Of a stretch of DNA of 49,987 bases, positions 25,133 to 28,878 are shown in pieces. The stretch spans positions 1 to 49,987 of the forward strand of contig JAKUPQ010000008.1 in NCBI GenBank assembly GCA_022450665.1. Reading direction: 5' to 3'. Under the pieces are notes generated by a model. The model was given only the letters and a program-made list of their open reading frames with translations. It had not been told where the DNA came from and searched no databases. Each line of letters begins with the position of its first letter. Position 1 is the stretch's first letter. The translations under genes were made by a program, and so were the position numbers. The stretch is from Alphaproteobacteria bacterium. GTDB taxonomy: Bacteria; Pseudomonadota; Alphaproteobacteria; Rickettsiales; VGDC01.

Positions 25133-25528
25133 TCAGGTGGTGGATGGGGGATCGACGGTCAGGATGTTCCTGAGGTCGAAGGGCTTCCAGCCAAGTCCTG
25201 TGACTTTCGCCACGTAGGTCTCGCCGATGATCATCTCTCCGTACGTGTTCGAAGCGGTGAACTTCGTGTAGACGCGAGATCCGGTGACCTTGAAGGTCTC
25301 TTTCTGGCGATCGCCGGTCTTCTCATCGATCACGGTGGCCCAGACGTAGAAGTCGGACTGGTTGAACTCGGGGTCGCTGATGTGCTCCTTGCCGGTGACG
25401 GTGATCGTGATGGTGTCCTTGGTGACTACCTGAATCCCGATGTTTCCGGCGATGACGACAGCGATGATGCAACCCACGATGGCGAAGAAACGAGGCGGCG
25501 TGAGCCAATTGAGCCAACGAAACGGCAT
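25133..25528 (-). CDS. Small membrane-anchored DUF1523-like protein, foreign composition
   Basis: The 131-residue product has one N-terminal membrane helix (about 12-34, FFAIVGCIIAVVIAGNIGI) followed by a small beta-rich domain. The pattern ASNTYGEMIIGETYVAKVTG, then GWKPFDLRNIL recalls DUF1523-type proteins of proteobacteria and phages; the match is from memory and moderate. GGAG lies 8 bases before ATG 25528; the frame is open back to 25639 but without a better start. The gene is about 60% GC (36 of 60 bases at 25141-25200) against 48% in a rimO stretch, and prefers C/G-ending codons. It has its own terminator. Recent transfer or an assembly join are both possible. Confidence 0.65.
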   Translation of the reverse strand: MPFRWLNWLTPPRFFAIVGCIIAVVIAGNIGIQVVTKDTITITVTGKEHISDPEFNQSDFYVWATVIDEKTGDRQKETFKVTGSRVYTKFTASNTYGEMIIGETYVAKVTGLGWKPFDLRNILTVDPPSTT

Positions 25529-25689
25529 GGTACGCTCCAATCGGAGTAGAGAATCCTGTGGATTCATGAGTAGGACATTGCCTGTAGTTTTGCGGGAAGC
25601 GCGAGATTCCTTTCGGAGAGTCGGTAGGTGCAATTGCAAAACAAGTGAATCTGGTAATAGTAAATTAAAATGATGACAAAATTATGACA

Positions 25690-27015: not shown

Positions 27016-27058
27016 GTTCCTATCCCTATGAAATTTCACTATGTTCTAAAGTTGGCGG

Positions 27059-27087
27059 AATATAGTGAAAAACCACCCCCAAAGCAA
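27059..27087 (-). promoter_or_regulatory. Sigma-70-type promoter for rimO
   Basis: On the minus strand TTGCTT (27087-27082), a 17-base spacer and TATATT (27064-27059) precede the preferred rimO start by 43 bases. Confidence 0.6.
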
Positions 27088-27122
27088 GATATGTTTATAA
27101 TGCAAGCCTAGTGCGGTTTTGC

Positions 27123-27151
27123 TTGCTAATTCACATTTGTATATGTATTAT
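27123..27151 (+). promoter_or_regulatory. Sigma-70-type promoter for the S24-like regulator
   Basis: TTGCTA (27123-27128), a 17-base spacer and TATTAT (27146-27151) point toward the regulator gene at 27280. The inverted repeat at 27207-27229 lies between this promoter and the gene. Confidence 0.5.
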
Positions 27152-27206
27152 ATCTTCGCTTCCACCCCATGCATCGCTGTTACTAAACAATACAAGATTC
27201 CTGCAT

Positions 27207-27229
27207 CCTATATATGCATATTATATAGG
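27207..27229. promoter_or_regulatory. Inverted repeat, candidate operator of the S24-like regulator
   Basis: CCTATATA (27207-27214) and TATATAGG (27222-27229) form perfect 8-base arms around a 7-base spacer, 50 bases before the regulator start. The left arm is part of CATCCTATA, a word that recurs on the other side of the gene. Confidence 0.5.
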
Positions 27230-27279
27230 TAAAACAAAGGGCTGTACAATATCAACTCTGCTGAGGTAGGAACATTCTT

Positions 27280-27975
27280 ATGAACACAGAAATTGCTTCG
27301 ATCAGACAGCGCGAAAAATTTAAATCGCTTTTACGGGAACGCGGGATATCACTGCGTCGCATGTCTATAGATTTAGGATTAAATGAATCCTACTTCCAGC
27401 AATTTGTTACTTATGGCCGTCCTTCATATATAGAAGGAAACGTGTTGGAGCTTGCCGCGCAATATTTGGATATCAGCGCCGATGTGTTAGCGCCCGCCGG
27501 ACTGAACGAGCCAGAGCGAACCACACCATACGAAACCAGCGGCTATAAACACAACGATGGAACAATTGCGGTGATCCCCTGCTATGATTTATCCGTTAAG
27601 CTTGCGGCGGATGATTGGCGAAATGAGCAGTATCAAACGCACCACATGACCTTTTCACGACAGATGCTGCGAAGCATCACACCGGTTTTGCCCGATAATC
27701 TGGCAATGCTGGTTGTTGCAAATGATGCGATGTCGCCATTATTGCAACAAGGCGACAATGTTCTGCTTGATTGCACCTGCACCACCGCCACACAAGATGG
27801 TATTTATGCAATTCTTCACGATTCGTATATGCTTATTAAGCGCCTGACCATCGACCCGGTACGAAAACTGGTAACTTTGTCGCCCGACAACCCTGCCTAT
27901 CCAAACACCAGAGAATACAGTATTATAGACCTGCCATTAGCAGGTCGCGTAATCTGGGCAGGTAAAAAACTTTAA
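27280..27975 (+). CDS. LexA/CI-like transcriptional regulator with non-catalytic S24 domain
   Basis: The 231-residue protein has an N-terminal helix-turn-helix (about 10-55, LRERGISLRRMSIDLGLNES) and a C-terminal S24 fold (about 95-230). The motif that normally holds the catalytic serine (GDSMxP) reads NDAMSPLLQQGDNVLLD, with alanine at residue 150. The lysine is kept in YMLIKRL (about 187) and LSPDNPAYP is also present. Self-cleavage is therefore unlikely, and it probably works as a conventional repressor that uses the domain for dimerisation. AGGAAC precedes the ATG. Inverted repeats with CATCCTATA cores lie on both sides and suggest autoregulation. The targets are unknown. Confidence 0.85.
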   Translation: MNTEIASIRQREKFKSLLRERGISLRRMSIDLGLNESYFQQFVTYGRPSYIEGNVLELAAQYLDISADVLAPAGLNEPERTTPYETSGYKHNDGTIAVIPCYDLSVKLAADDWRNEQYQTHHMTFSRQMLRSITPVLPDNLAMLVVANDAMSPLLQQGDNVLLDCTCTTATQDGIYAILHDSYMLIKRLTIDPVRKLVTLSPDNPAYPNTREYSIIDLPLAGRVIWAGKKL

Positions 27976-27980
27976 CGCAC

Positions 27981-28021
27981 ATCCTATATCATAGGATTGA
28001 CGCATCCAGCACCATCCTATA
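27981..28021. promoter_or_regulatory. Second inverted repeat and half site downstream of the regulator
   Basis: ATCCTAT (27981-27987) and ATAGGAT (27991-27997) are perfect 7-base arms with a 3-base spacer, and CATCCTATA recurs at 28013-28021. The same core occurs before the regulator gene. The sites lie upstream of the RluA-type gene. Confidence 0.45.
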
Positions 28022-28090
28022 CTCTGCCTTTCAAATGCACTTCAAGGCTTCCTTAAGCATTATTTTTATATGCATGAAGTGTGACAAATA

Positions 28091-28125
28091 TCCCGTGGGG
28101 TGTGAACACCCTGCGGGAGTTTTTG
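28091..28125 (+). terminator. Rho-independent terminator between regulator and pseudouridine synthase
   Basis: CCCG-GGGTG arms pair with CACCC-CGGG around TGAA (28092-28117) and are followed by a run of T residues. It probably ends the regulator transcript; an attenuator role for the next gene is possible. Confidence 0.75.
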
Positions 28126-28179
28126 TAGCAGAAAGGTAATATCGCTTTTCTTTCATCCCAATCCCGCTACACTGCGCCC

Positions 28180-28878
28180 ATGACACCCGAAGAAATTCAG
28201 CAGCGCGTATTGTATCGCGATGGATTAGTGCTTATCATTGATAAGCCTGCCGGAATTCCTGTGCATAGCGGCCCAAAGGGCGGGGAGAACCTCGAGCAGT
28301 ATTTCACCCATTTGTGTTATGGCTGGTCGAAGCCTCCAGCGCTGGCGCACCGTTTAGATCGTGACACCAGCGGATGTTTGGTTTTGGGGCGGCACCCCAA
28401 AGCACTGCGCAAATTAGGTCGGTTGTTTTCTGGTGCAGGGGTTGATAAAACCTATTGGGCAGTCACCCATGGCCACCCGACCAGCGACAGTGGCCAGATA
28501 AACCTGCCGCTTACCAAACAAAGCCGCAACAAACAAAGCTGGTGGGTTACCGTGGATCAAGCAGGCGGCAAGTCTTCGGTTACAGATTATAAAGTCTTAG
28601 GAAAAACTGAAAAATATAGCTGGATTGAATGCTACCCGCGTACAGGACGCACCCATCAGATTCGGGTGCATTTAGCCGCCATAGGCTGCCCTATTGTGGG
28701 CGAAACCATTTATGCAGGGCGCGAGCTAGACGACACCACTCAACCGGTGTTGCATCTGCTGTCGCGCAGCATAACCTTGCCACTCTCAGCAAATAAGCCA
28801 CCTATCACCACTACAGCAAGCCCACCAAAACATATGCATGATTTATTGCGTCAATGCGGTTGGAACCCCAACAGCTAA
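28180..28878 (+). CDS. RluA-family pseudouridine synthase without S4 domain
   Basis: The 232-residue protein is the catalytic domain alone: VLIIDKPAGIPVHSGPKGG (about 17-35), the active-site HRLDRDTSGCLVLG (Asp60) and the late YPRTGRTHQIRVHLAAIGCPI (in pieces, about 150-170). Members modify uridine in tRNA or 23S rRNA; the absence of an S4 domain recalls RluA/TruC types, but the target cannot be told. There is no clear ribosome binding site before ATG 28180. Its TAA overlaps the stop of the convergent histidine phosphatase gene by 4 bases. Confidence 0.9.
   Translation: MTPEEIQQRVLYRDGLVLIIDKPAGIPVHSGPKGGENLEQYFTHLCYGWSKPPALAHRLDRDTSGCLVLGRHPKALRKLGRLFSGAGVDKTYWAVTHGHPTSDSGQINLPLTKQSRNKQSWWVTVDQAGGKSSVTDYKVLGKTEKYSWIECYPRTGRTHQIRVHLAAIGCPIVGETIYAGRELDDTTQPVLHLLSRSITLPLSANKPPITTTASPPKHMHDLLRQCGWNPNS

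Follow-up and report, generated by a model that had tools for sequence, protein, structure and literature searches.

The gene that lies between rimO and rluA may encode a protease-dead repressor of the LexA fold which regulates itself, and perhaps also a short, terminated transcript next door; we favour this explanation tentatively, and put it somewhat short of an even chance. The gene is located in a window of 49,987 nucleotides (the whole stretch of DNA that was analysed), and the features on which the argument turns are the following.

27123-27151, + strand: weak promoter candidate for the regulator, TTGCTA-17-TATTAT, with 9 of 12 consensus matches
27204-27212, + strand: CATCCTATA, copy 1, in the left arm of the upstream palindrome
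27207-27229, no strand assigned: 8+7+8 palindrome CCTATATA/TATATAGG, upstream of the regulator gene, candidate operator O1
27220-27248, - strand: leftward promoter candidate TGTACA-17-TATAAT, with its -10 inside the upstream palindrome
27280-27975, + strand: gene for a regulator of 231 aa with HTH and S24 (LexA-fold) domains, Ser replaced by Ala at residue 150, Lys187 kept
27980-27988, + strand: CATCCTATA, copy 2, at the downstream palindrome
27981-27997, no strand assigned: 7+3+7 palindrome ATCCTAT/ATAGGAT, downstream of the regulator gene, candidate operator O2
27997-28023, + strand: promoter-like TTGACG-N15-TATACT, the window's sole TTGAC-N14-19-TATAMT (0.27 expected)
28013-28021, + strand: CATCCTATA, copy 3, without an inverted partner, overlapping the -10-like TATACT
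28030-28126, + strand: short hypothetical transcript running from the promoter-like element as far as the terminator
28091-28126, + strand: intrinsic terminator before rluA, with a 12-pair stem and T tail, -24 kcal/mol

The regulator would dimerise without cleaving itself, and would most likely bind CCTAT-N3-ATAGG-like sites, one at 27217-27229 in its own leader and the other at 27981-27997. At the leader site it would limit its own expression; at the downstream site, aided by the half-site at 28013, it would block the promoter-like element at 27997-28023. A transcript from that element would run for about 95 nt, to the terminator in front of rluA. We infer every binding and promoter step of this mechanism. 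A self-regulating gene is a plausible but ordinary proposition: sites that proved real would provide a first guess at the operators of a large alphaproteobacterial class of S24 regulators that has been little studied and is unable to self-cleave, and otherwise this is ordinary autoregulation.

The regulator matches Peptidase_S24 (PF00717; E 1e-10, Pfam profile search). Its HTH is sub-threshold in Pfam (best match 17.7 bits against a cut-off of 22), and HTH structures are matched both by its profile and by its structural model. This AlphaFold2 model, built on an alignment of 48 sequences, has a mean pLDDT of 89.6 and finds LexA as a structural match (Z 15.7, 2.2 A over 122 residues); the 186 and lambda repressors match it as well. 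The two domains, the LexA fold and the confidence of the model all support the explanation proposed here.

The catalytic motif GDSMxP reads NDAMSP in the regulator, in which Ala150 aligns with Ser in 36 of 47 homologues (another, L019, was left out of alignment A1 because of masked letters). Lys187 is kept and is Lys in 40 of the 47, so that one member of the catalytic Ser-Lys pair of self-cleaving S24 repressors is present and the other absent. The Ala-Gly cleavage site is also missing: the regulator reads LAADD, with Ala in the column that holds Gly in 31 of the 47 homologues. Because Ala150 replaces the catalytic Ser and the Ala-Gly site is gone, no self-cutting is expected, and the regulator probably cannot be induced through self-cleavage as CI and LexA are. 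The earlier note had called it a CI-like repressor, which is apt for its HTH and its S24 fold of the LexA/CI type and fails in the sense of an inducible one.

In domain order and fold the regulator is like LexA and the lambda and 186 CI proteins (Peptidase_S24, PF00717), and the 37 residues from Ala150 to Lys187 equal the spacing of Ser119 and Lys156, the catalytic pair of LexA. It differs from them in its Ala for the catalytic Ser, in its lack of an Ala-Gly site and in having no adjoining phage or SOS genes. The serine-lysine pair and the Ala-Gly site are given as defining features of LexA and CI in PMC7101444, and it is because self-cutting is not expected that we set the regulator apart from both.

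Of known systems, RogA of Caulobacter crescentus (CCNA_00080) is the nearest, and the regulator appears to resemble it more than CI or LexA, a likeness judged from description. The two are of similar size (RogA 213 aa, the regulator 231 aa) and combine an HTH with an S24/LexA-like domain without catalytic residues; RogA works through inverted repeats at a very small number of promoters, and the regulator lies outside a prophage neighbourhood. According to PMC9632790, RogA is an S24/LexA-like repressor of gene transfer agent activators that lacks key catalytic residues, is found at two promoters only (gafYZ and CCNA_02002, with inverted repeats GGAA-N4-TTCC in both); of 1,331 alphaproteobacterial genomes, 819 carry a homologue. 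A precedent of this kind, with catalytic residues lacking and inverted repeats at two promoters, supports our explanation; it does not cover autoregulation, as the binding reported there is to gafYZ and CCNA_02002 only (PMC9632790). No RogA-type GGAA-N4-TTCC site was found within 27040-28179 at up to one mismatch. DUF6456 (PF20057), which GafZ carries, has no match in the genome in a search that matched the Caulobacter control and that a divergent GafZ could escape.

The genome has three GTA_TIM proteins (L204, L205 and L206, on G000 contigs C32, C23 and C39, respectively). By eye, C32 and C39 are prophage-like with GTA-like tail modules, and C23 has housekeeping genes next to a set of GTA-like tail genes. 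We rejected prophage or GTA targets: these three stretches hold no exact CATCCTATA, and none of their matches to the 17-mer downstream palindrome is closer than 3 mismatches.

Both inverted repeats described in the earlier note, at 27207-27229 and 27981-27997, hold in coordinates and arm lengths, and the word that it reported at each repeat and at 28013-28021 was found in all three places. These are the only copies of CATCCTATA in the whole window, where window shuffles lead one to expect 0.32. The spacers of the palindromes are unequal (7 upstream, 3 downstream), so that a single dimer cannot recognise both in that form; this difference and the lack of a partner for the third word weaken the explanation. 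A common form is provided by CCTATNNNATAGG, which the right part of O1 (27217-27229) equals with one mismatch, giving each flank of the regulator gene a site of the same geometry. At up to one mismatch the window matches it only twice, exactly at 27983 and with one mismatch at 27217 (0.91 expected), and that these two matches flank this gene supports self-regulation.

The first repeat had been said to lie between a promoter candidate and the ATG; its position is confirmed relative to the weak candidate at 27123-27151, and an autorepression site could lie there. A consensus promoter scan of the region returned 4 candidates against 3.3 expected; it allowed spacers of 16-18 only and did not list the element at 27997-28023, whose spacer is N15. 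That element shares base 27997 between the end of O2 and its -35-like hexamer TTGACG, and its TATACT (28018-28023) covers the end of the third CATCCTATA and two bases past it. The position of the window's only such element, between and over the downstream sites, supports their proposed role. Shuffled windows can yield the same, which weakens the explanation: at least one promoter-like match was present in 26 of 100, and two CCTATNNNATAGG-like matches in 23 of 100.

None of 200 shuffles was as good as the terminator at 28091-28126, and rluA starts beyond it, at 28180. Because this terminator intervenes, a transcript from the element at 27997-28023 would be about 95 nt long and would stop short of rluA. 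An Rfam search of the stretch gave no match above gathering score. A 34-codon reading frame at 28035-28139 crosses the terminator region and is probably due to chance.

One rival is chance, which we judge nearly as likely as self-regulation. Short palindromes and repeated words would then be what AT-rich intergenic DNA yields, the coincidence would have been selected, and the regulator would bind elsewhere. Such features are indeed common in the window, which also weakens our own explanation: a perfect inverted repeat (arms of at least 7, gap of at most 7) occurs in 10 of its 23 intergenic regions, and three copies inside 900 bp are found for nine different 9-mers (two of these entirely intergenic). 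Under a looser test, a palindrome is shared in 29 of the 506 ordered intergenic pairs; among neighbouring pairs, in 2 of 44. Against chance stand the centring of the pattern on a gene for a DNA-binding protein and the rarity of the combination in dinucleotide shuffles of the two flanks, tests that were framed post hoc with the pattern already known. Among 20,000 shuffles, a thrice-repeated 9-mer appeared in 35 and palindromes in both flanks in 275, whereas a common word inside the palindromes of both flanks appeared in 3, a result that supports the self-regulating gene. A 5-3-5 palindrome downstream with an upstream copy (at most one mismatch) was present in 80 of 20,000, a number that falls to 1 of 20,000 when its 9-mer must also recur. 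The single features are thus unremarkable, and the combination is weakly above chance.

There are two further rivals. The words could be promoter -10 regions and transcript hairpins instead of operators: CATCC-TATAnT would belong to a sigma-70-like -10, and the regulator mRNA would have the downstream palindrome as a hairpin in its 3' untranslated region. The TATACT at 28018-28023 with TTGACG 15 bases upstream would suit this, as would the downstream palindrome, which folds better as RNA than 197 of 200 shuffles; yet no good -35 stands at a suitable distance from the upstream word and a strong terminator is already present at 28091, and we consider the idea unlikely. Slightly more doubtful still, in our view, is a small regulon in which the regulator would use the downstream sites to repress rluA as well. 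The regulator and rluA do flank these sites on the coding strand, but the -24 kcal/mol terminator separates them from rluA, and the rluA of sister genome G001 (74% identity) has no S24 gene upstream; on these two grounds the compact regulon reaching rluA that the earlier note had pictured is not supported. Little probability, too, attaches to an extension of our preferred explanation in which a self-contained, lineage-specific unit would have been inserted between rimO and rluA, with a protease-dead LexA-fold repressor controlling itself and the adjacent promoter of a noncoding RNA of about 95 nt (a repressor/small-RNA pair).

Across the genome, CATCCTATA is not enriched, which again favours chance: the 2.48 Mb contain 13 copies against 5 of the reversed control, where the window shuffle rate of 0.32 per 50 kb predicts about 16. 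The earlier note had made its case depend on the word being infrequent at random positions, and here the outcome is intermediate, with 10 copies beyond this locus, 5 of them inside ORFs of at least 100 codons; from these we see no sign of a wider regulon. Palindromes of the form CCTAT-N1-14-ATAGG are rarer than in the reversed control (26 vs 41), and 7 of the 26 have a 3-base spacer, which is above an even spread over 14 spacers. The downstream palindrome is the only exact ATCCTATNNNATAGGAT (a 17-mer) in the genome. At up to 3 mismatches this 17-mer has 89 matches against 47 in the reversed control, a ratio that we do not take as enrichment because the reversed control is richer in the dinucleotide TA. 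Exact CCTATNNNATAGG occurs 7 times, and the 6 occurrences beyond this locus all lie inside ORFs, which supports action at this gene. A genome-wide regulon was therefore rejected, given the 13 copies of the word, a palindrome count below control and 3-base-spacer sites mostly in ORFs. Elsewhere, G000:C4:7776-7798 (L048) holds a 23-bp intergenic palindrome, CCTATATTTACAAATATTATAGG, that resembles the upstream palindrome of the window. Its neighbours, named by eye, are a coaD-like gene on one side and, on the other, the start of a glutamine-amidotransferase-like gene.

The scanned neighbours of the regulator gene are housekeeping genes (rimO, rluA, His_Phos_1, DUF924, PEMT, DUF1294, a histidine kinase, L13, S9 and a semialdehyde dehydrogenase), together with an ORF at 25136-25639 without a Pfam match. 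No phage genes are among them, as had been claimed, and no SOS genes adjoin.

Protein matches to the regulator were found in 2 of 2 genomes of the family (its own included) and in 20 of 55 relatives in the order, none of them, the gene itself excepted, above 33% identity; at class level, 29 of 385 genomes (its own included) have matches at E 1e-12, the best at 30-37% identity. No close homologue was found in the genomic or viral contig collections searched, and tblastn with the regulator retrieved 121 phage and 12 plasmid records, all below 60% identity. Palindromes with 7-base arms in both flanks are found at 2 of 28 class-level homologue loci. The lack of a close homologue or a conserved flank, and the low count at these loci, weaken the case for self-regulation.

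The gene is absent from the rimO-rluA spot in 3 of 3 relatives examined, with gene names assigned by eye. The gene order rluA, histidine phosphatase, DUF924 is conserved in sister genome G001, while G004 and G026 each have rimO and rluA in divergent orientation, separated by other sequence. A search of the other 54 genomes with the 1140-base stretch found no relative at the DNA level. Since relatives lack the gene at this spot and no DNA relative of the stretch was found, sequence comparison indicates that the presence of the gene between rimO and rluA is lineage-specific, through insertion or survival.

The aligned S24 genes of the order form one group (100/99 support) with the window protein outside, nearer to genes found across the class; its long branch (2.43) makes this placement unsure. 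The ECH_1013 family of Ehrlichia (NF048000) has the same domain order, and the regulator matches it weakly (E 2.8e-07, 30.6 bits, cut-off 300). The second S24 regulator of the genome, L034 (G000:C11:33678-34352), resembles that family at 153.8 bits (cut-off 300), and differs from the window regulator in keeping an intact GDSMEP, with its Lys, in belonging to the S24 group of the order and in adjoining ctrA-like and chpT-like genes (matches below curated cut-offs). By eye, ChpT-like ORFs also adjoin the S24 gene in L018, L020, L027 and L028 of the order.
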